64,000 nucleotides of DNA from an uncultured Algimonas sp. Lineage in GTDB: Bacteria; Pseudomonadota; Alphaproteobacteria; Caulobacterales; Maricaulaceae. A program made the translations under genes and the position numbers. Positions within the stretch are counted from its first letter, which is position 1; the number at the start of each line of letters is the position of its first letter. The notes under the pieces are model-generated. The model had not been told where the DNA came from. It saw only the letters and a list, made by a program, of their open reading frames with translations, and did not search any database. Positions 3,031 through 38,354 of this stretch are shown here, one piece after another. The stretch covers positions 62,001 through 126,000 of the forward strand of contig NZ_CANMJB010000002.1 in NCBI RefSeq assembly GCF_947498175.1, given 5' to 3'.

Positions 3031-3659
3031 AGGTGGAACCGTTCCACCGGCGCGGTGAAGCGCTGGAACAGAGGCTGGTCGATGGCGAAATTCCAGTCCG
3101 CATCCGTGATCGCGCCCAGCTGCGTGGCGTAGTGCAACAGCGCTTCGGCCTTGCGCACGCGGTAGGGCGCGATGTCGATCGCCAGCTCGGCATCCGGCGG
3201 CGGGCGGCGGCCGTCTTCATGCGGCCAGACCAGATAGTTCAGTACCCGCGCCCGCGTCCGGCCCCGGCATATATGGTGCGCCGCGCGGTGGTCGGCATGG
3301 TTGTCGAAAGGCGACGGCAGGGCGACCGCGTCGAAGGGCCGGGACAGCAGCGCGTCGAGCCGGTCCGGCCGGTCCCACCGGTCCGATCCGCCGTCCGGCA
3401 GGTCCATGAAATGCACCCGGTCCCCGGCCACGCCCAGATGGGCCAGCGCGGCCCGGCTTTCGCGGCGGCGCGCGGCGCGCAGGCGGTGCGGCGGATAGGC
3501 CGCCGATCCCGGATGGGACGCCGCGCCGTCGCTGACGATGGCGACCGTGACCCGCCCGCCTTGCGCGCGAACGTGCTGGATCAACCCGCCGCAGCCGATC
3601 ACCTCGTCGTCCGGATGCGGCGCGACGACCAGCAGGTCGCTGATGGTCGCAGGGTTCAT
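3027..3659 (-). CDS. PIG-L/LmbE-family deacetylase
   Basis: LLVVAPHPDDEVIGCGGLIQHVRAQGGRVTVAIVSDGAASHPGS and HADHRAAH motifs. Confidence 0.92.
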   Translation of the reverse strand: MNPATISDLLVVAPHPDDEVIGCGGLIQHVRAQGGRVTVAIVSDGAASHPGSAAYPPHRLRAARRRESRAALAHLGVAGDRVHFMDLPDGGSDRWDRPDRLDALLSRPFDAVALPSPFDNHADHRAAHHICRGRTRARVLNYLVWPHEDGRRPPPDAELAIDIAPYRVRKAEALLHYATQLGAITDADWNFAIDQPLFQRFTAPVERFHL

Positions 3660-4741
3660 GCCGTGTTGAAGTCCAGACCGCCCGTCGGTCCGTTCGCCAG
3701 CACGGCTTCGGCGACCGCGTCCAGACTGCCGTCCGGGTTGGGCTGGCGGATATAGACGGCCAGGTCAGACAGGTGCGTGGCCAGCGGATGCGGGTGCATC
3801 AGGCCCGACAGGCCGACGGCGCGCTGCACGCGCATGATCTGGCGTTCCGCGCACTCCAGCACGCGGTGCCGCGCCGCGTCCACGCGCGGCAGCAGGTCCG
3901 GATCGGACGGCTCGTAGGCATGGGCGGCCATCATCACCGCGTCGATGGCGGTCTGGGCCTCCGAGAAACTTTCGGCGATGCGGCGCCGTTGCACCGGGTG
4001 CCCGGCGCGTTCGCGTTCCGTCAGCGCCGCCACCAGCCGGTCGTGCAATCCCGCCACCGCGCCCGCCTGCACGGCGGCGAAACGAAGCCCGCCGCCGGAA
4101 AAGTGCGGCTGGCGCTGATACAGCCCCGGTCCGCCCACGGGACCGGCGCGCGCCGGGCGCGCTCCGTCCCAGCTTACGATATGGGTTTCCGAACGCTGCA
4201 TCCCGACCGGCTGCCACCAGCTGCGGTCCGTGCGCGATGTCGCCTCGTCCAGTTCCACCAGCCACATCCGCACATGGTCCGGACTGTCGGCGCGGGTCGT
4301 GACCAGCGCGTGGGTCAGCAGCCCCGCGCCCGAGGCGAAGCTCTTGGCCCCGCGCAGGCGGCCCTCGTCCTCGCGCAGCGGATTGCCGCGATGGTCGTTG
4401 TTCCAGACCCCCGCGCGGTGGCCCCGGCGCTGGGCGGTTTCGGCCCAGCCGCGCTGGTCTTCGCTGCCATAGAGGCGGACCAGTTGCAGCGCGTTGACAT
4501 GGCCTTCGAACAGGCGGCCAAGTGCGGCGTCTTTTCGCCCCGCCGCGATCATGCGGCGGATGGTGCGCGCGACGCTGGCGGGATCGTCATAGGTCAGGAT
4601 GTCGTCCGTGCCGAGCGCGGCGAAGCGGGATTGCAGTCCCTCCGGCGTGAACGGCAGGCGCGGGTCGTCGGGCCTGTCGTCGGCCAGTTTTCCGGCTGGG
4701 GCGGAGTCCGCGTCCGACGACCTGTTGCGAAGATCGGGCAT
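3656..4741 (-). CDS. Acyl-CoA dehydrogenase-like flavoprotein
   Basis: LREDEGRLRGAKSFASGAGLLTHALVTTRA, ERQIMRVQRAVGLSGLMHPHPLATHLSDLAVYIRQPNPDGSLDAV; overlaps PIG-L gene by ATGA. Confidence 0.75.
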   Translation of the reverse strand: MPDLRNRSSDADSAPAGKLADDRPDDPRLPFTPEGLQSRFAALGTDDILTYDDPASVARTIRRMIAAGRKDAALGRLFEGHVNALQLVRLYGSEDQRGWAETAQRRGHRAGVWNNDHRGNPLREDEGRLRGAKSFASGAGLLTHALVTTRADSPDHVRMWLVELDEATSRTDRSWWQPVGMQRSETHIVSWDGARPARAGPVGGPGLYQRQPHFSGGGLRFAAVQAGAVAGLHDRLVAALTERERAGHPVQRRRIAESFSEAQTAIDAVMMAAHAYEPSDPDLLPRVDAARHRVLECAERQIMRVQRAVGLSGLMHPHPLATHLSDLAVYIRQPNPDGSLDAVAEAVLANGPTGGLDFNTA

Positions 4742-5847
4742 CAGACCGCCGCCATCTGCCGGGCGGGCGCGTCCATTTCGCGCGCAAGGATCGCGCGCGC
4801 CTGATCCAGCGCCATGTCGGGGGTTAATTGCGGATCGGGCAGGGCCTGCGTGACAAAGGCGTCGGCGGAACGGGCCCGGTTCCAGGCCCGCTGCACGGCC
4901 ATCCGGTCCAGCCCGAGCCGGTCGGCCGCCCGCGCGACCCGGCCGGCATCGTCATGGGCGAAGCCCCGGCGCAATTCCGCCGACAGCTGGTAGAGGTGCA
5001 GATAGCGGCGCGGATCGACGACCTTGAAAGGCTCGCCGCGCGCGGCCTGTGCGTCCTCGCGCACCAGCGCTTCGGCCAGCCCGCCGCACGCCCGGCCGGT
5101 GCGGCGCGAACTGGTCAGCACGCGCACGGACCGGTCCTGGCGCACGCGGTAGCCCCAGCGGCGGGCCTCGGCGACCATGCGCGTATCCTCGTCGCTGGGA
5201 ACGGACGGGCAGCCGCCGATGGCGTAGTAGACGTCGCGGCGCAGGGCGATCGACGCGCCGTAGCCCTGGGGGTGGGGATCGGGACTGTCATGGGCGACCG
5301 GGTCGATGCGGCGGCGCGCCCGGTGCAGGTCGTGGTAATGATGCTCGTGCGGGGCGCGGATGACGTTGCCCTGATTGTCGTCGCGCCAGATGTCGCCGCA
5401 GACCATGTCGGCCTCGCCCATCAGGGCGCGCGTTGCGCTCAGCCAATGGCGGTCCACCAGCGTGTCGGCGTCGGTCGTGAACAGGATCGCCTCCTCGACG
5501 GGAAAGGCGCGCGTGCCTTCCTGCAGCGCGGCCCGGCGCACCCGGCCGGCATGCGGCTGCGGATGGGCGGGCAGGTCCAGGATGCGGATCTCCACCGGGA
5601 AATGGCGTTTTCGTTCTTCGAGGATGTCGCGGCTGTCGTCGCCGTTTCCGTCCAGTGCGACGACGAGGCAGCCGCGCGGGTCGCGCAGGTCCCGGAACGC
5701 CGTCGCCAGCGCCGACAGAAAGCCGGGCAGTCGGCGCGCCTCGGCCTTGGCGGGCACGCAGACGATGCAGGGCGCGCGGTCATAGGCGCGCGGCCCGTAG
5801 CGGCCCGTGCGGGGCGGGACGAAGTCATATAGGTCGGCGTCGTTCAT
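4741..5847 (-). CDS. Glycosyltransferase family 2
   Basis: CIVCVPAKAEARRLPGFLSAL..., TTDADTLVDRHWL, GYGASIALRRDVYYAIGGCPSVPSDEDTRMV; TGATG overlap with next gene. Confidence 0.85.
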   Translation of the reverse strand: MNDADLYDFVPPRTGRYGPRAYDRAPCIVCVPAKAEARRLPGFLSALATAFRDLRDPRGCLVVALDGNGDDSRDILEERKRHFPVEIRILDLPAHPQPHAGRVRRAALQEGTRAFPVEEAILFTTDADTLVDRHWLSATRALMGEADMVCGDIWRDDNQGNVIRAPHEHHYHDLHRARRRIDPVAHDSPDPHPQGYGASIALRRDVYYAIGGCPSVPSDEDTRMVAEARRWGYRVRQDRSVRVLTSSRRTGRACGGLAEALVREDAQAARGEPFKVVDPRRYLHLYQLSAELRRGFAHDDAGRVARAADRLGLDRMAVQRAWNRARSADAFVTQALPDPQLTPDMALDQARAILAREMDAPARQMAAV

Positions 5848-6077
5848 GATCCGGCTCTCCCATGTTCCTGTCCGCAGGCGGTTTCCCGGACAGTTTCTCA
5901 GTCAGACAGTTTTCGGGCGGTCCGCCCCGACCGGGAGCCGGACGGATGTCGCCACCTTGTATTACGAACGAGGCGGCGATCCGTTCGCGGCCAAATCCGA
6001 ACCGAATGCCTGCGGTTAAGCGGTCGCGTTCGAAAACAGCCGCGGACTTATCAACGCCTTCGAAGGATTTTGCGATT

Positions 6078-7504
<1,427 letters not shown>

Positions 7505-7508
<4 letters not shown>

Positions 7509-10081
7509 GCGCCGTCCAGGATGGCGGCGACGGCATTCGACAGCGACGTGTCGTCGATCGGCTTGGTCAGCACGCGGGTGCCGTCGAGCTCCGCCGGAAT
7601 ATCCAGCCCGGAGCCGTAGCCCGTGACGAACAGGAACGGCACGCCGTCCGTCTTCAGGCGGCGGGCGATGTCGAAGGACACGACCCCGCGCAGGTTCATG
7701 TCCAGCACGGCGAAGTCGAACGTCTCCCGGTCGAGCATTCGCATCGCTTCCTTGACCGTGCTGCAGGTCTCGACCACCTCCGCGCCCAGCTCGGTCAGGC
7801 TCTCCACCATGTCCATGGCCAGCACCAGATTGTCCTCGACCAGCAGCACGCGGCGGTCGCTGGCCGCCATCTCGACCTTGCCGATCATGCCGACGACGCC
7901 GCCGTCCGGCGCGGTCTCGTCCTCGCTGATTTCCGTCAACGTATCGGGCGGCAGGGTGAAGTCGAAGGTCACGCCGCCTTCCGGGTAGGCCAGATCGGCG
8001 GTGCCGTCGAATTCGTAGGGTATGGCGCGTTCGATCAGCGACCGGCCGAAGCCCTGGCGCTCCGGTTCCGTCACGCGCGGCCCGCCCAGTTCCTGCCAGT
8101 TGAAGGCCAGCCCGGCGTCCGAAAGCGACCAGCGCGCCCGCACCAGCCCGTCCGGCGTGCTGAGCGCTCCGTATTTGGCGGCGTTGGTGACGACTTCGTG
8201 GAAGACGAGCGCGACGATCGGCGCGACATCCGGGCGCAGGCCGATGCGCGGCCCAGCGAGCAGGTATTGCGCGCCGTCCGGGCTGGCATAGGGTTTGAGC
8301 TCGGTTTCCAGGATGCGGCGCAGCGAAACGCCCTTCATCGTGTTCGACACGGCCAGGTCGTGCGCGGCGGCCAGGGCCGCGATGCGCTGCTCCAGCGCCT
8401 GCGCGTAGCTTTCCAGCGAGGCGGACGAGGACTTGGCCTGCCGCGACAGCGAACGGATCAGGGCGAGGATGTTCTTCACCCGGTGATTGAGTTCGGCGAT
8501 CATCAGGTCCTGCTGGCGCTGGTGGTTGACCAGGTCCTTGTGGCGCAGCATCTGCGCGCGCTCGCCCTTGGCCGTGATCTGGGTCAGCAGGATCTGCAGT
8601 TCGCGCCCGGCCTCCTTGTCGAAGGCGGACCAGTCCATGCTCCAGCCGTCCTGTTCTTCCAGATAGGCGGCGAAGCTCTGGCGCGGGTGCAGGCGGGCGC
8701 CAAAATGGCCGGTGACGATGGTCTTTTCCGGCTTGCCGGCCCAGTTGACCTTGCGGGTCTTGCCGTCCCGGAAGAACATGAGCTGCAGCGGGTAGGCCGC
8801 CGTGCAGCGGATCAGCATGCAGCCGGCCGAATGGCCGGCATCCGCGTCGCCCACCCATTTCCCGTGCACCAGCGACGACGTGCTCTCGATCAGGTCTTCT
8901 TCGTCGGGCTTGCGCGCCGCGATCACGCGAATGAGGTCGGAAGACGGTGTGGAGCCCAGGACCTGCACCCGGTCGTCGCGGATGACCGCGACGCCGTCGC
9001 TTTCGACGACACCTTGCAGGATCGGGCCGAGGTCCGCGAAGGCGTGCAGCAGATCGGTCGCCGCGTCGGTTTCGGCCAGGATCCGGCTGCGGCTCTGGCC
9101 CGCCATGGCCCGGGCCGAGGACCGTTCGACCTCGATCTTCTGCTGGATGACGAGGGAGATGAGCTGCCCGAACAGTTCGACCGCGATGCGCAGGTCCGAT
9201 CCGATCGTCTTGTCGCTCATATGGTGGCAGGCGAACATCCCCCACAGGCGTCCCGCGACCACCAGCCCGATGGTCAGCGTCGCGCCGACGTTCATGTTCT
9301 TCAGATATTCGATATGGATGGGCGAAACGCCGCGCAGATGCGCCAGGCCGAGGTCGAGCGGCGGCAGGTCATCGGTCACGGCCAGCACGGGCACGGGGTC
9401 GGCCGCGACGTCCGTCAGGATGCGGACGGGGTTCTTGATCTGCAGCGCCCGCGCCTGGACCGGCACGTCCCAGGCCGGGTAACGCAAGCCGAGAAAGCTG
9501 TCGGCCTTGGCGGCACGCGATTCGGCCACGACTTCGCCGTCGCCATTGTCGGCATAACGGTAGGCCTTGACGCGGTCATAGCCCGTCAGATCCCGCAGGC
9601 CGTGCGTGCAGACCTTCAGCAGGCCCTGGATCGTGCGCTGGTGGCTGGCCTTGTCGAGCAGGACGCGCATGCGTTCGACCGGCGAGCGGCGGTCCTCGCG
9701 CGGCGGCTCGGCCGGCTCGAATTCGATCACGGCGAGCTTGTCCGGGTTGCGGTGCGCGAACAGCTCCACCCGGACGCCGTCGCGCATCATCGACCCGACA
9801 CGTTCGCGCTGGCGCGCCGCCGTGGACATGCTCAGCATGTTGCGGATGTCGTGGACGAGCTGGCGCCCCAGCAATTCGACGAAATCCGTGCCCAGCAGGG
9901 TGCGCGCCGGAAGGCCGAGCACGTCGGCCGTGTTCGCGCTCGCATAGTCGATGCGGACCATGTCGAGATCCCCGGCCAGCAGGCAGCCGAACGGCTGGAT
10001 CTGTCCGGGCGTATGGATCGGTTCGGCGTCGCAATTGTCGAGCGCGAGCTGTTCGTCCTGACTCAGAAAGGCTTTGGCCAT
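7505..10081 (-). CDS. bphP: Bacteriophytochrome: PAS-GAF-PHY photosensor, HWE-type histidine kinase, C-terminal receiver
   Basis: DNCDAEPIHTPGQIQPFG with N-terminal Cys17; YPAWDVPVQARAL (DIP-like motif); ELNHRVKNILALIRSLSRQA; receiver VLLVEDNLVLAMDMV...FAVLDMNLRG...TKPID. Confidence 0.93.
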
Positions 10082-29223: not shown

Positions 29224-31425
29224 GTGACACGACCCGCAAACCGACCCCTTCTGCTCGCCAGTTCCATGATCGCGCTGGCCGCCGCGCCGGCCGCCCATGC
29301 CGTGGAAGGCATGTTCACGCCGGACCAATTGCCGGAGATCGCCGCCGATCTCCGCGCCAAGGGCCTGCAACTTGCGCCGGAGCAGATTTCGGATTTGACC
29401 GGCTTTCCCATGGGTGCGGTCGTGTCGCTGGGCGGTTGCACGGCCTCCTTCGTTTCGCCGCAGGGGCTGGTCGTGACCAACCATCACTGCGCCTACGGTT
29501 CGATCCAGTACAATTCGACCGAGGAGAACAACTATCTGGACGAAGGTTTCCTGGCCGCCAGTTTCGATGCCGAACTGCCCGCAGCGCCCGGTTCGCGCGT
29601 CTATGTCACCGTCGATCTGGACGATGTGACGGACGACGTCACGGGCGGTCTGTCCGACAGCCTGACCGGCGAAGCGCGCTTTGCGGCCATCGATTCGGCG
29701 CGCAAGGCGCTCGTGGCCGAGTGCGAAGAAGACGAAGGCCATCGTTGCCGCGTCGCGTCCTTCCATGGCGGATTGCAATACAAGCTGATCAAGCAGCTGG
29801 AGATCAAGGATGTCCGCCTTGTCTATGCGCCCGCCGGTCCGGTCGGCAAATATGGCGGCGACATCGATAACTGGATGTGGCCGCGCCATACCGGCGATTT
29901 CTCCTTCTACCGCGCCTATGTCGGTTCGGACGGCAAGTCGGCGGAGTATAGCGAGGACAATGTCCCGTTCGTGCCGCCGCATACGCTGAAGGTCTCCGGC
30001 GCGGGTCTGGACGATGGCGACTTCGTCATGGTCGCGGGCTATCCCGGCAGCACGTCGCGCTACACGCGGCTGGCCGAAGTGCGCAACACGTTCGACTGGG
30101 GCTACCCGACCTATCAGAAACTGATGGAAGACTGGATCGGGGCGATCGAAGGCGCGTCCGAACCCGGCAGCGACGCCCGGATCAAATACGAGTCGCGTCT
30201 GGCAGGCCTCAACAACTATATGAAGAATCTGGGGGGACAGATCGACGGGGCGCGCCGGGTCGGCCTGGTCCAGCGCCGCGCGCAGCGCGAAGCGGCGCTC
30301 AATAGCTGGATCGCGGCCGAGGCGCCCGATGCGGGTTATGCCGAAGCCATTCGCGCGCTCGACGCGCTCAGTGCGGAAAGCGCCCGGGCGCAACGGGCGA
30401 ACTATTGGTACAACAACGCCACGCGTCCGCAGCTGCTCGGCGTGGCCCAGCGCCTCTACCGCCTGTCGCAGGAACGGCTGAAACCCGATGCCGAGCGCGA
30501 GTCCGGCTATCAGGAGCGCGACATGGACCGCATGCGCGAATCGCTGACGGCGCTGGACCGCCGTTACGATCCGACCGTGGACAAGGCGGAATGGATGACG
30601 TTCCTGCGCGGCTATCTCGCCCAGCCTTCCGCGCAACGCGTCGCCGCGCTCGACAATGCGTTGGGTCTGCGCGACGGGATGAGCGATGCCGCCCTGTCAG
30701 CGGCGCTCGACCGCTATTACGCGTCGAGCCGTCTCGGCGATCTGGACACGCGTCTGGGTCTGATGGACGCAACACCCGATGCGCTGGAAGCCAGTGCCGA
30801 TCCGTTCATGCGCTTGGCCGTCGCACTCTACGATCACGAACTCGCGATGGAAGCGGCGTCCAAGGACCGGGCCGGCCGCCGTGCGGTCTTGCAGCCCAAA
30901 TATATGGAGGCGATCATCGCCTGGCAGAAGGACCAGGGCTTCACCGCCTATCCGGACGCCAACTCCACCCTGCGCGTGACCTACGGCAACGTCATGGGTG
31001 GCTCGCCCAAGGACGGGATGCGCTACGATCCCTTCACCAAGTTGGAAGGCATATTGGAGAAGGATACGGGCGAGGATCCGTTCAATTCCCCGGCCGAGCA
31101 GCTCGCGCTGATCCGGGCAAAGGATCATGGACCCTACAAGCTCGACTCCATCGATTCCGTCCCCGTCAACTTCCTGACGGATCTGGATTCGACCGGCGGC
31201 AATTCCGGTTCGGCCACGCTCAATGCGCGCGGCGAACTGGTCGGCCTGCTGTTCGACGGCACGATCGAGAGCGTGAACTCCGACTGGGACTTCGATCCGC
31301 GCACGACGCGGTCCATTCATGTCGATAGCCGCTACATGTTGTGGGTGATGGACAAGCTGAACGATGCCGATCACCTGCTCGATGAAATGGACATCGTCGG
31401 CGCGCGTGGACAGTCGATGCGTTAG
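29224..31425 (+). CDS. S46-family dipeptidyl peptidase (DPP7/DPP11-like)
   Basis: 733 aa; signal peptide; CTASFVSPQGLVVTNHHCAYGSIQ; STGGNSGSATLNARGELVGLLFDGTIESVNSDW. Confidence 0.95.
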   Translation: MTRPANRPLLLASSMIALAAAPAAHAVEGMFTPDQLPEIAADLRAKGLQLAPEQISDLTGFPMGAVVSLGGCTASFVSPQGLVVTNHHCAYGSIQYNSTEENNYLDEGFLAASFDAELPAAPGSRVYVTVDLDDVTDDVTGGLSDSLTGEARFAAIDSARKALVAECEEDEGHRCRVASFHGGLQYKLIKQLEIKDVRLVYAPAGPVGKYGGDIDNWMWPRHTGDFSFYRAYVGSDGKSAEYSEDNVPFVPPHTLKVSGAGLDDGDFVMVAGYPGSTSRYTRLAEVRNTFDWGYPTYQKLMEDWIGAIEGASEPGSDARIKYESRLAGLNNYMKNLGGQIDGARRVGLVQRRAQREAALNSWIAAEAPDAGYAEAIRALDALSAESARAQRANYWYNNATRPQLLGVAQRLYRLSQERLKPDAERESGYQERDMDRMRESLTALDRRYDPTVDKAEWMTFLRGYLAQPSAQRVAALDNALGLRDGMSDAALSAALDRYYASSRLGDLDTRLGLMDATPDALEASADPFMRLAVALYDHELAMEAASKDRAGRRAVLQPKYMEAIIAWQKDQGFTAYPDANSTLRVTYGNVMGGSPKDGMRYDPFTKLEGILEKDTGEDPFNSPAEQLALIRAKDHGPYKLDSIDSVPVNFLTDLDSTGGNSGSATLNARGELVGLLFDGTIESVNSDWDFDPRTTRSIHVDSRYMLWVMDKLNDADHLLDEMDIVGARGQSMR

Positions 31426-33017: not shown

Positions 33018-33848
33018 TCAGTCTGATGAGGCGTCTGCGAAGCGCGGCACGGAGACCTGACGCGCGCCCGCGTCGCGGATGGCCCCCTTGCCGCGTTCGG
33101 TCATGTCGCTGACGAATTTGAATTGGTCGCGCATGTCGAACGGGTAGGCCTTGAGGCTGTATTTGGTCGCGAACTCCGTTTCCTTCAGCACGACCAGCAC
33201 CGGTTTGCGGTAGTCCAGATAGGCGCTGGTCAGGGCGACATCGACCAGTTCGCGGCGCACATCGGCCGCGTCGTGGTCCGGTTCCAGATAGAAATCGGCG
33301 ACGCACATCAGCGTCTGCGACCCCGTATTGGCATTGGAGATGTTGTGCGACCAGATCATATCGTGCGGGACGGTGATCACGTCGTCCGCCGCCGTGCGCA
33401 GCCGGATGGCGCGCATGCCCAGGCTGATGACCTCGCCGTAATCGCCTTCGATTTCGACCCAGTCCCCGGGCCCGTAGGGCCGTTCGAAAATGGCGACGAT
33501 GCCCGCGATCAGGCTGCTGACATAGTCCTTGAAGGCAAAACCGATGGCCACGGAGGCCGCGCCCGCAATGACCAGGAAGTTCTGCAATGTGATGTTGAAG
33601 ATCAGCGGCGTGATCCACAGGATCGCCGTGACGATGATCGCCATGCGCAAGATTGGCACGGCCCGCAGCAGATAGAGGCGCAAGCGGCTGGGCGCCCGGT
33701 CGGCCAGGAAGGGGATGATGCGGCGCACAAGCCAGACCGCAGCGAAGCTGAACAGCAGGATCAGCGCGATCTGGACGAAGCTGATCTCCTGCAGGTCGTT
33801 CAACAGGTTGGCGGCCCGCTCCCGTGCCATATCGGCCTGTTCTTCCAT
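33018..33848 (-). CDS. MscS-family mechanosensitive ion channel
   Basis: NFLVIAGAASVAIGFAFKDYVSSLIAGIVAIFERPYGPGDWVEIEGDYGEVISLGMRAIRLRTAADDVITVPH. Confidence 0.93.
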   Translation of the reverse strand: MEEQADMARERAANLLNDLQEISFVQIALILLFSFAAVWLVRRIIPFLADRAPSRLRLYLLRAVPILRMAIIVTAILWITPLIFNITLQNFLVIAGAASVAIGFAFKDYVSSLIAGIVAIFERPYGPGDWVEIEGDYGEVISLGMRAIRLRTAADDVITVPHDMIWSHNISNANTGSQTLMCVADFYLEPDHDAADVRRELVDVALTSAYLDYRKPVLVVLKETEFATKYSLKAYPFDMRDQFKFVSDMTERGKGAIRDAGARQVSVPRFADASSD

Positions 33849-34982
33849 CTAGAGCACGTCCACCGGATAACCGTTGTTCTTCAGCCCGTCGCGCACGGCC
33901 GGGTAGGCGGCGGGGTGGCAACGGTAGAGCCCGTCCGTTTCATCGATCAGTCCGCCCCGCAGAAGCGATGACAAAACGTTCGTGTAGGTGACCAGTGGGA
34001 CGGTCTGCACGATCTGGTCGTCCGTCAGCCCGCCATGGATCAACAGCGCATGCAGGATCAGCAGCGCGTTCTGGTCGCTGCGGCTGGGCACGGACGGGCT
34101 TTGCAATTCGGCGACCCAGAGTGTGTTCGGCTTGCAGTCCCGCATCGCGTCTTCGTCGTCATGGATCGGTATTTCTGTCCGCAGGCTGTCGCGCCAGAGA
34201 TGCCATGCGACCCAGGGAATGCCGAGGCTGCGCTTGGCCAGATCGGTCATGAAGCTCGACACTTCCGCCTCGCCGTCGCCGTTGCCGAACACGTCGCGGC
34301 CTGTCGCGGCGGCGCGGAAGCACAGGGCGGTCTCGTCAGCCGGCGCGTGGGCCAGCGTGCCGAGCCAGGCGCGCAGCCGTTCGCGGTCATAGGCCCGGAA
34401 AGTCACGGGATCGCTGAACACCAGGTCGATCTCGCAGCTTTTGCGCAGAAACTGCCACGCCCAGCTGTTGCAGCCGACGATGAGGCTGCGTTCCATCCGC
34501 GCCATGCGGTCGATTAAGATGCGCATGCGCACCAGTCCGTCGCGCGTGCGCAAGAAATGACGTTCCAGCTTCGGCACGACGAGCGGTTCGGCGGAAGCTG
34601 TGTCCAGCGCGTCGAGTTCGCCGACGCCGCGGTCGAGCCCGAAGACAGGCAATCCGCGGTCTCCGGCCCAGCGTCCGAGCAGGTCTTCGCGGTCGCAGGG
34701 CGGCAGGACGATGGTCTGGTGGCGGGGTCCGTTCTCCGGAGCGTCCAGCCATCCGCTCAGCGTTGCGTCCAATTCCGAAACGACGGGCTGATGCGCCGGC
34801 GGTTCGGACAGGTCGTCCAGAAGCGCCTGTGAGGGCCGTTCCAACCGGCCTGTATCGATCCCGGAGGCATCGCCGCGATTCAGCAGGGGTCGAACGGCCT
34901 CGCGCAGCCGGTCCAGCCCCCTGTTCACGGGCGTGCTGGGCCAGTCATATTTGCCGAGCGATCGAAACGGGATGGTGTTCAT
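33849..34982 (-). CDS. Uncharacterised protein coupled to MscS gene
   Basis: 377 aa from ATG at 34982; stop TAG directly abuts MscS ATG (TAGATG); LVVPKLERHFLRTRDGLVRMRILIDRMARMERSLIVGCNSWAWQFLRKS; no Walker A seen. Confidence 0.82.
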   Translation of the reverse strand: MNTIPFRSLGKYDWPSTPVNRGLDRLREAVRPLLNRGDASGIDTGRLERPSQALLDDLSEPPAHQPVVSELDATLSGWLDAPENGPRHQTIVLPPCDREDLLGRWAGDRGLPVFGLDRGVGELDALDTASAEPLVVPKLERHFLRTRDGLVRMRILIDRMARMERSLIVGCNSWAWQFLRKSCEIDLVFSDPVTFRAYDRERLRAWLGTLAHAPADETALCFRAAATGRDVFGNGDGEAEVSSFMTDLAKRSLGIPWVAWHLWRDSLRTEIPIHDDEDAMRDCKPNTLWVAELQSPSVPSRSDQNALLILHALLIHGGLTDDQIVQTVPLVTYTNVLSSLLRGGLIDETDGLYRCHPAAYPAVRDGLKNNGYPVDVL

Positions 34983-35097
34983 CGAGCCAAACCCACCCCC
35001 ATGTCGTGAAAGCCTTGCATGTTCGAAAGTCTTACTGCCGGTTCGAGCGTCTGTCGCCTGCAATCCCGGACCCGCGGGAAAAAATTTTCCCGTGAGC

Positions 35098-37326
35098 CTA
35101 GAAGGTCTGGCCGAAACGGAAGAAGAATTTTAGGTCTTCATTGCTGCCATAGGCCGTGCCGAGGAAAACCGGGCCGAGCGGTGTCTCCGCACCCAGGTAG
35201 AGCGACCCGGAATACACATCCCTGTTGGCAAGCCCGAAGTCATCCGCCTCGACCCTGCCATATTCGGCCAGAGCCCCGACATAGACCGGTATGTCAAACA
35301 GGAAGCCCGTCTCTGAAATGCGGTGATACGCCTCGACGGAACCGAATGTCAGCGTCTCCATCTGCAGCGAATCTTCCAGGAATGCGGTGAGTTGGCGAAA
35401 GCCGCCCAGTTCGAAAGCCGAATCCGTTCCGAGGACGACATCGTCTGCAATCAGATCCCCATAGCGCGCGTTCAGCAACATACCGATTTCGCCGATCTCG
35501 AAGGCATAGAGCAGATCCGTTTCGAGGCGGATGGAGTCGATGTTGAAATCGCCGGCTTCAGCGGTATCGAATTCTTCCATGAACTGCTGGCCGCGCCCGC
35601 GAAGACGCAGTCCCCGCGTCGGCCAGTCCAGGCGATCCAGCGTGTCGACCGCGACATAGGCACCGACCGATGCGCTGCTGTAGGACAGGGTTTTGAAATC
35701 GGTGAGGGAGGTGACGATGTCGCTCACGGAATTGTGGCGGTATTCGGCTTCGAGCGCAACCAAACCCCATTGGGAAAGTTCGCGGCCCAAGCGGGACCGC
35801 GCGCCGTAACTTTCGATCTTGAAATCGCCTATCCTCTTTTCGCCTTCGTTGATCGTCTTGAGTTGCGAGACCGCGAAGATTTCCGGCTGGAAGAAATAGC
35901 GCGTATGGCGGCCGAAGGGCTGGTAGAATTCCAGACTGACCCCATTGTCCGTTCCGATTTCGGTCGAGAGCGTCAGATCCGCCCCCAATCGGTTCAGGGG
36001 TTGGCGCGTGACCTGCGCCAGAAGCGAATAGGTCGACCCGCCTTGGAAGTCGTTCGTCGCGTTGACGCCGATCCGCGCCCGGTTGCGCCCAAGCGGGTGC
36101 CGTCCGACACGCAAGGTGGGCCGTCCTTCATTGTAACCCAGATCGACTTCGCCGACGCCGCCGAACGAAGCGAGCTCGCGCAAGCGACGTCGGACGATTT
36201 CCGGATCCGGGTCCTCGGCATCCAAGGCCGAAAGGCGCGAAATGAGGACGGTGTCGTCCAGCTCGCTTTCGTTGCGGATGTCCGCTGCGATCCGGGCGAC
36301 CCGTTTTTTCGGCGCCGCGCGATCGCGTGCCGGAGCGGCCCTCGCCTTGATGGCCAGCAATGCGTCGGCATGGTCCTGCCCGACCGCACGGCCGGCTTCC
36401 AGGCCTTCCTCCGCCCGGTCGTAGCCGGCCGTGGCGATGCCGAGCGTATTGGCGAAGATGTAGAGGTCATCCTCGCTCAGCTTGGCTTTGTCGGCTTGGG
36501 CGTTGTTGTAGATCAGCAGGGTCGTGATCTGGCGCAGCGTATCCACGACCGTCCCCAGATTTTCGGCGGATTGGGGCAGGCCGGTCGTATCTATGGCTAT
36601 AACGATGTCCGCGCCCATGTCCTGGACCGTCTGGACCGGCAGGTTGGATGCCACGCCGCCATCGACATAGGTGACGCCGTCGATCCGGCGCGGTGCGAAG
36701 ACCCCGGGAACCGCCATGCTGGCCAAGATCGCCTCGACCAGGTCGCCGTCCTTGAATGCGACCGCTTCGCCGGTATCGAGCCGGGTGGCGACGACTCGCA
36801 AGGGAATGCCGAGCGCATCGAAATCCGTGTTCAGGGGAACGCCGCGAAGAAGGCGCCTGTAGAGGCTCTTCAGGCCCTGCATGGACCGCATTCCGCCGGG
36901 AACCACGATCTTACCTTCGTTCAGTCCCAATATGTCGCCGGAAAAATATTCTTCTTCCCGTTCCTTTTCGATAAAGGACTTGTCGCGCCTCGCCAGGTCG
37001 CTGCGGAAAATCGTGCCCCAGTCTTCCCGCTCCAATATGTCGGCGATTTCATCGGCGCTGTAGCCGGCGGCGTAAAACGCTCCCACGACGGCGCCCATGC
37101 TCGTGCCGGCGATGCAGTGCACCGGGATGTCGAGGTCTTCCATGATCTGCAGCACGCCGACCTGCGTGCTCGCCTTGGCGCCGCCGCCGCTCAGGACCAG
37201 TCCGACATCCAAACCGTCCCGGTCGTCATCGTCGCAGGCCAAAGCCGGGAAGGCGGAGGCCAGCCAGGCGCATGCCGTCAAGGCGATCGCACGGTGCCCT
37301 GTTCGTCTCAGGAAAGAAGAGGTCAT
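35098..37326 (-). CDS. Patatin-like phospholipase fused to C-terminal outer-membrane barrel (PlpD/type Vd-like)
   Basis: GLVLSGGGAKASTQVGVL, AGTSMGAVVGAFYAAG (GxSxG), YVDGGVASNLPV (DGG); C-terminal beta-rich region ending GSNEDLKFFFRFGQTF. Confidence 0.9.
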   Translation of the reverse strand: MTSSFLRRTGHRAIALTACAWLASAFPALACDDDDRDGLDVGLVLSGGGAKASTQVGVLQIMEDLDIPVHCIAGTSMGAVVGAFYAAGYSADEIADILEREDWGTIFRSDLARRDKSFIEKEREEEYFSGDILGLNEGKIVVPGGMRSMQGLKSLYRRLLRGVPLNTDFDALGIPLRVVATRLDTGEAVAFKDGDLVEAILASMAVPGVFAPRRIDGVTYVDGGVASNLPVQTVQDMGADIVIAIDTTGLPQSAENLGTVVDTLRQITTLLIYNNAQADKAKLSEDDLYIFANTLGIATAGYDRAEEGLEAGRAVGQDHADALLAIKARAAPARDRAAPKKRVARIAADIRNESELDDTVLISRLSALDAEDPDPEIVRRRLRELASFGGVGEVDLGYNEGRPTLRVGRHPLGRNRARIGVNATNDFQGGSTYSLLAQVTRQPLNRLGADLTLSTEIGTDNGVSLEFYQPFGRHTRYFFQPEIFAVSQLKTINEGEKRIGDFKIESYGARSRLGRELSQWGLVALEAEYRHNSVSDIVTSLTDFKTLSYSSASVGAYVAVDTLDRLDWPTRGLRLRGRGQQFMEEFDTAEAGDFNIDSIRLETDLLYAFEIGEIGMLLNARYGDLIADDVVLGTDSAFELGGFRQLTAFLEDSLQMETLTFGSVEAYHRISETGFLFDIPVYVGALAEYGRVEADDFGLANRDVYSGSLYLGAETPLGPVFLGTAYGSNEDLKFFFRFGQTF

Positions 37327-38354
37327 ATCGGTATGGCGTTGTGCGGAACGGAACGGGGTCGCGTCAACACCTGCAATGTCGCCGCATCGAGCGGACGTTT
37401 GAATTTCAGCCCTGCATAATGGGCGTTGGTCCAGCGGACCTGCGCCTTGTGCCAGTTGCCGCCCAATTCGATACCGATCTCGGCCCCGTCGGTGATCGTT
37501 CCTCCGTGCCCGAGTTTGGCGCCGTTCATCGACACATCGATCAGGCGCATGGCCTGGGACGAGCCGTTCATGAAGACCATGACCGGCCGATCCAGCATCC
37601 GGCGCGCCTCCCGTACGGTGCGACGGCGTAGCCTGCGTTGCGCCAGAAAGAGGAAAGCGGCCAGGAGCACGCCCAGCACGGCCATGACGAAGACCATCAT
37701 GTCGGCACGAACGATGGCGCCCCGGCCGAAATAGGCGCCTGTCCCGCTCGGTTCGGACGCTGTGGGCCGGTTGCGTCCCGGTGTGCCCGACGCGGCCGGA
37801 TTGGCGGCTTGTCCAAGCGAGGAAGACGGCCCGCCATTCTGTCCGCCCTGCATACCCTCTGACGCCCTTGCGCCGAGACTGGAGCCGAGATCGGAATTTG
37901 GATCCATAGCCTCTGGCGCGTCCGTGCGGCAGCTCCAGCGGGCTTCCAGCGACGACAGGCTGGCGAACAGCTGCGGGGTCACGCGACCGTCCAACGCCAG
38001 ACGCGCATGGGCGTCATGGCCGTTCTGGATATTGGCGGCGGCTTCCCGCAGCCCCGAAACGTAGCCGGTCAGGGCGCGTCTCTGGTCGGTGGGCAAGGCG
38101 TCAGGCCCGCCGGGGATAAGGTCGGGAAGGGAGAGCCCGGCAACGACCCTGTCAAGGCGCGGCGCCAGGTCCGGCGTCGGTGCGCCGATCTCCAGCGCCT
38201 GTGTCAGCGACAGGCTCTCGACCAGACCGTCCAGCTGCCCGCAGACGTCCTGCGCGAAGGCATGGGGCGAAACGCCCGCGACGGCGGCGAGCCCGAGCAT
38301 GGCGGCTTGGATGGTGCGGTGCGGAGACATGATGCGCCGTGTGTCGCCGGACAC
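37323..38354 (-). CDS. Membrane-anchored PilZ domain protein
   Basis: Signal peptide, periplasmic segment, TM (MMVFVMAVLGVLLAAFLFLAQRRLRRR), PilZ-like RMLDRPVMVFMNGSSQAMRLIDVSMNGAKLGH; ATGA overlap with patatin gene. Confidence 0.82.
   Translation of the reverse strand: MSGDTRRIMSPHRTIQAAMLGLAAVAGVSPHAFAQDVCGQLDGLVESLSLTQALEIGAPTPDLAPRLDRVVAGLSLPDLIPGGPDALPTDQRRALTGYVSGLREAAANIQNGHDAHARLALDGRVTPQLFASLSSLEARWSCRTDAPEAMDPNSDLGSSLGARASEGMQGGQNGGPSSSLGQAANPAASGTPGRNRPTASEPSGTGAYFGRGAIVRADMMVFVMAVLGVLLAAFLFLAQRRLRRRTVREARRMLDRPVMVFMNGSSQAMRLIDVSMNGAKLGHGGTITDGAEIGIELGGNWHKAQVRWTNAHYAGLKFKRPLDAATLQVLTRPRSVPHNAIPI

Follow-up and report, generated by a model that had tools for sequence, protein, structure and literature searches.

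We describe a pair of adjacent genes in which a soluble 377-residue protein, predicted to have the fold of an AAA+ ATPase and to have lost its catalytic residues, is encoded directly upstream of a mechanosensitive channel of the MscS family. The genes lie in a 64,000-nucleotide stretch of DNA, which we call the window. A dedicated partnership between this protein and MscS is well supported, and we lean, by a modest balance of probability, towards a two-gene module in which the soluble, dead AAA+ partner sets or modulates the gating of its dedicated MscS without ATP. MscS is a model for tension-driven channel opening and is usually treated as self-sufficient. Neither MscS channels nor AAA+ proteins are new in themselves; we did not find a description of an MscS-AAA+ pair in the open-licence literature searched, and among those papers the pairing as a conserved module appears to be undescribed.

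The gene pair and the predicted fold of the partner

The features of the pair, with the source of each assignment in brackets, are as follows.

33849-34982, minus strand: partner gene, 377 aa, soluble pseudo-AAA+ protein with a C-terminal winged helix, predicted MscS partner (translation, model and linkage)
33018-33848, minus strand: MscS-family channel gene, 276 aa, paired subfamily (Pfam and hydropathy)
33846-33851, minus strand: TAG/ATG junction with a 0-bp gap, TAG at 33849-33851 and ATG at 33846-33848 (sequence)
34659-34721, minus strand: predicted position of the lost P-loop (Walker A), with beta strand 88-93, loop PPCDRED and helix 101-108 (model secondary structure)
34563-34583, minus strand: degenerate Walker B, LVVPKLE, residues 134-140 (homologue alignment)
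34461-34475, minus strand: GCNSW motif at the end of beta-4, the sensor-1 position, strongly conserved (homologue comparison)
33873-34073, minus strand: predicted C-terminal winged-helix domain, residues about 304-370 (model)

The 276-aa product of the downstream gene belongs to the MscS family: it matches the Pfam model MS_channel_2nd (PF00924) above the cut-off (E 5.6e-18), it has hydrophobic transmembrane (TM) segments by hydropathy, and it contains the MscS beta-domain and pore-helix region that it has in common with E. coli MscS and its paralogues. To our knowledge, the E. coli MscS gene has no such partner neighbour. The first-pass annotation of this DNA had placed the TAG of the upstream gene directly against the MscS ATG, and the sequence bears this out with a gap of 0 bp; translational coupling at such a junction would lead to both proteins being made together. 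A longer partner reading frame is possible from a TTG at 35063 (404 aa), but comparison with homologues supports the ATG at 34982 as the start. On the same strand, a patatin/Omp85 gene lies 115 bp upstream of the pair and an AMP nucleosidase gene 102 bp downstream, distances that leave the pair somewhat isolated from its neighbours.

Searches of Pfam, NCBIfam, PADLOC and the PDB sequences gave the partner no significant match; the hits to S-layer Sap, S100B and RseA_N were at chance level and were rejected. The earlier statement that the protein has no recognised domain therefore holds for sequence models (Pfam, NCBIfam, PDB) but not for the fold, which structure prediction gives as that of a degenerate AAA+ protein ending in a winged helix. 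Nor did the match to a characterised enzyme family appear that the same annotation had named as counting against it. AF2 models of the window partner (pLDDT 83.8, pTM 0.85) and of a halomonad homologue (pLDDT 86.3, pTM 0.87) both present an AAA+ core followed by a C-terminal winged helix. The best Foldseek matches of the models are RuvB, ORC/Cdc6 and NLRP3, with E of 2.4e-5 (RuvB) and 8e-5. Aligned to NSF D2 by VIA-align, the two models reach Z 10.6 (4.0 A, 194 aligned) and Z 11.4 (3.7 A, 194 aligned), and the halomonad model aligns to the winged helix of Csa3 with Z 9.9 (1.9 A over 72 residues). The two AF2 models, Foldseek and VIA thus agree in placing the partner within the AAA+ fold, and it resembles ORC/Cdc6, RuvB, the NACHT of NLRP3 and NSF D2 in its predicted fold and in having the winged helix after the AAA+ core. 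We conclude that the partner is predicted to be an AAA+ protein of STAND/ORC-like type with a C-terminal winged helix. The patterned segments singled out in the first-pass annotation are present, and the C-terminal one, described there as winged-helix-like, coincides with the winged helix of the models. Hydropathy finds no TM segments in the window partner.

The absence of a Walker A motif, reported from the window sequence, extends to all 33 homologues, none of which has GxxxxGK[ST]. The P-loop position, which we place from the model and an alignment of the pseudo-family (a joint alignment misplaced the P-loop of the sister proteins described below), reads PPCDRED in the window protein; many halomonads have PPHGGH there. 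The Walker A lysine is absent in 33/33. At the Walker B position the sequence reads hhhP, the aspartate being replaced by a proline that is invariant (33/33), while the sensor-1 region GCNSW is retained in nearly all homologues with N, D, Q or S in third place. Because the Walker A lysine and the Walker B aspartate are lost in every homologue, we predict that the partner is a pseudo-ATPase, catalytically dead, and file it as AAA+-derived rather than as an active ATPase. It differs from AAA+/STAND NTPases in having neither the Walker A lysine nor the Walker B aspartate, and it has no sequence-level match to them.

Linkage and co-inheritance with one MscS subfamily

The first-pass annotation proposed examining how well the neighbourhood is conserved, and named homologues that usually lie away from MscS as counter-evidence. 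Instead, in 33/33 homologous loci, all from distinct genomes, the partner gene immediately precedes MscS on the same strand, and this presence in every locus takes the arrangement beyond chance. With implausibly long starts excluded, the intergenic gaps range from about -4 to +76 bp. The hosts are Maricaulales-type relatives (including Algimonas arctica), a second alphaproteobacterial family, the halomonad family and the Planctomycetes (Neorhodopirellula pilleata); we found no homologues in phage records. Weak profile matches in other genomes were discarded: one locus (L013) is an Rrf2-like regulator, and three more (L014, L023 and L024) match neither partner nor MscS.

The MscS subfamily and the partner occur in exactly the same genomes in each set surveyed, namely 5/60 relatives, 23/151 halomonads and 8/398 genomes across the phylum, counts that come from related genomes and so are not independent trials. 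The subfamily is sharply delimited: in the 398-genome set, paired MscS proteins score at least 403 bits and the next MscS 172 bits. When 17 neighbourhoods are compared, only the two genes are generally common, other common genes being mostly limited to close relatives, and we find no conserved third gene beside the pair. Pairwise distances of partner and channel correlate with r = 0.97, and their trees are nearly congruent, with almost all groupings alike. In both trees the planctomycete groups with the Maricaulales-type bacteria, which suggests, from sequence relationships, that the pair has been transferred together as one unit; joint transfer could account for part of the tight linkage. Adjacency is kept down to partner identities of about 20-28%. 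With all homologues adjoining MscS, the MscS subfamily never found alone and the trees matching, there is strong support for the earlier proposal that the two genes form a dedicated and undescribed unit.

In two halomonad genomes the partner gene is damaged while the MscS gene next to it is intact. In one (G727) the partner gene is split into two frames, and in the other (G1142) the partner is shortened by about 110 residues. These cases suggest that the channel may work, and so may keep some use, without its partner. Given the sporadic distribution (5/60 relatives) and the seven MscS-family genes of the source genome, the module is probably not essential. A simple look at the reading frames beside the other six of those genes shows no obvious AAA+ partner. 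In one further genome (G309) the pair is followed by further tandem MscS genes, with what appears by eye to be an FNT-like transporter gene upstream.

Four MscS-family channels have been described in Halomonas elongata, a halophile of the same broad group as the halomonad homologues (PMC7174268). They are of other types than the paired MscS subfamily, and we found no mention of a partner gene for them in that work.

The wider MscS-AAA+ family

Beside the next-closest MscS subfamilies, a larger AAA+ gene abuts the channel gene upstream in 11/11 fetched loci, with gaps of -8 to +21 bp. An hhalign comparison of the window family with these MscS-linked AAA+ proteins gives a probability of 99.0 (E 4e-18) over 264 columns that cover the AAA+ core and the winged helix; the probability is 0.2 for an unrelated profile and at most 0.7 for 13 generic P-loop ATPase loci compared by hhalign in local mode. 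Aligned individually to the window family, all but one of 13 MscS-linked proteins have E <0.01. A separate draw of 119 gammaproteobacterial genomes yields three strong matches (one already in the set, two new), 3/3 of them directly upstream of MscS. Three plasmid records also carry an AAA+ gene and then MscS, two of the three annotated. On a plasmid of Caulobacter sp. NIBR2454, WP_269717132.1 is annotated 'ATP-binding protein' and is followed by a mechanosensitive channel, and in Novosphingobium pentaromativorans the 'AAA family ATPase' WP_007014233.1 is likewise followed by one. The Caulobacter record has, at 3102-7524, two consecutive mechanosensitive channel genes after the ATP-binding protein gene.

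Within these sisters the catalytic residues vary. Walker A and B are intact in L118, L121 and L125, and L117 combines Walker A with a Walker B aspartate, while the Walker A lysine is lost in L119, L120, L122-L124, L126 and L127. The Pfam AAA_22 cut-off is passed by 5/7 of the sister proteins scanned. Most have N-terminal TM segments; L123 and L124 do not. The 1048-aa ATPase of L117 (2021-5167) has a long N-terminal region with several TM segments before the AAA+ core, MscK-like by eye.

The window protein resembles the MscS-linked AAA+ proteins of Caulobacter and Novosphingobium in lying directly upstream of MscS (their genes overlap MscS or stand 2 bp from it) and in its homologous AAA+ plus winged-helix core. 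It is much shorter, at 377 aa against about 860-1110 aa; it is predicted to be catalytically dead, whereas those of Novosphingobium keep Walker A and B; and it is soluble, whereas most sisters have an N-terminal TM region, a difference that is not strictly defining. The window pair is thus a soluble and, by prediction, catalytically dead branch of a wider MscS-AAA+ two-gene module.

Proposed role and competing explanations

The computations show two genes that are linked and co-inherited, a predicted fold whose catalytic residues have been lost, and a relationship by homology to MscS-linked ATPases; a physical contact, its site and any effect on gating are what we infer. The partner would dock on the cage that the MscS heptamer forms in the cytoplasm and, once docked, would set or modulate gating (its threshold, its inactivation or the permeability of the cage) with no need of ATP; the membrane-anchored, Walker-competent AAA+ proteins of the sister modules may do likewise in a nucleotide-dependent manner. 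Regulation of the channel by the partner is plausible, and FtsZ, which is reported to bind the cytoplasmic (cage) domain of E. coli MscS (PMC4440785), provides a precedent for protein binding at the cage, although FtsZ, unlike the window partner, is not encoded beside MscS. Of 20 MscS positions that the paired subfamily conserves and its sisters do not, 10 fall within the cage region, which makes up 87 of the 276 residues; this share is weakly suggestive of, and compatible with, a partner contact at the cage. A broader claim, which we put forward tentatively and at less than even strength, is that AAA+ proteins, whether active or dead, serve widely as cytoplasmic gating subunits of MscS, a class so far unrecognised, with the regulator of the window lineage fixed in an ATP-independent form. 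If this is true, some 'passive' bacterial tension valves are under the control of nucleotide-dependent machines. A partner coupled to whole MscS subfamilies, with both active and dead AAA+ cores, would offer a natural comparison of ATP-dependent and ATP-independent valve control, and it supplies a candidate function for genes annotated merely 'hypothetical protein' or 'AAA family ATPase'.

The same linkage and co-inheritance would fit equally well if the partner were devoted to channel biogenesis, as a chaperone or adaptor of pseudo-AAA+ type that helps the MscS heptamer to assemble or keeps it stable and leaves gating unaffected. AAA+ folds often remodel proteins, and the partner is encoded, and so translated, ahead of the channel. 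However, other MscS subfamilies assemble without a partner, as in E. coli, and the membrane anchors and N-terminal domains of the sister partners suggest sensing or anchoring, so that we regard biogenesis as unlikely, if a serious contender.

We give a lower probability again to the partner being an output of the channel, released according to channel state and then binding DNA through its winged helix to alter gene expression. The winged helix does resemble that of DNA-binding proteins such as Csa3, and one weak profile match fell on an Rrf2-like regulator, but in ORC- and STAND-type AAA+ proteins a winged helix ordinarily serves as a lid and has no part in gene control, and neither a conserved target nor a third gene is linked to the pair.

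A STAND-type anti-phage role, in which the AAA+ protein would be the sensor and the MscS pore would do the killing, would suit both the patchy distribution and the relation of the fold to STAND/NACHT proteins (NLRP3 and Avs4 are among the Foldseek matches). We consider it very improbable: PADLOC matches neither protein and the flanks tested contain no defence system, the synteny is stable in halomonads, the catalytic residues are lost across the entire branch, and the partner has no repeat sensor domain. Least probable of all is that the genes have no functional link and co-travel by chance or joint transfer, because adjacency persists at partner identities as low as those given above with no other common neighbour and ATPase-type homologues hold the same position beside other MscS subfamilies, even though the patchy distribution and cross-phylum spread suggest transfer.

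The surroundings of the pair add some minor observations. The patatin phospholipase at 35098-37326 of the window is fused to an Omp85-type barrel and also matches generic phospholipase effector models (PADLOC), a large S46-family peptidase is encoded at 29224-31425, and the gene at 37323-38354 encodes a protein with a C-terminal PilZ-like domain that scores slightly under the Pfam cut-off.
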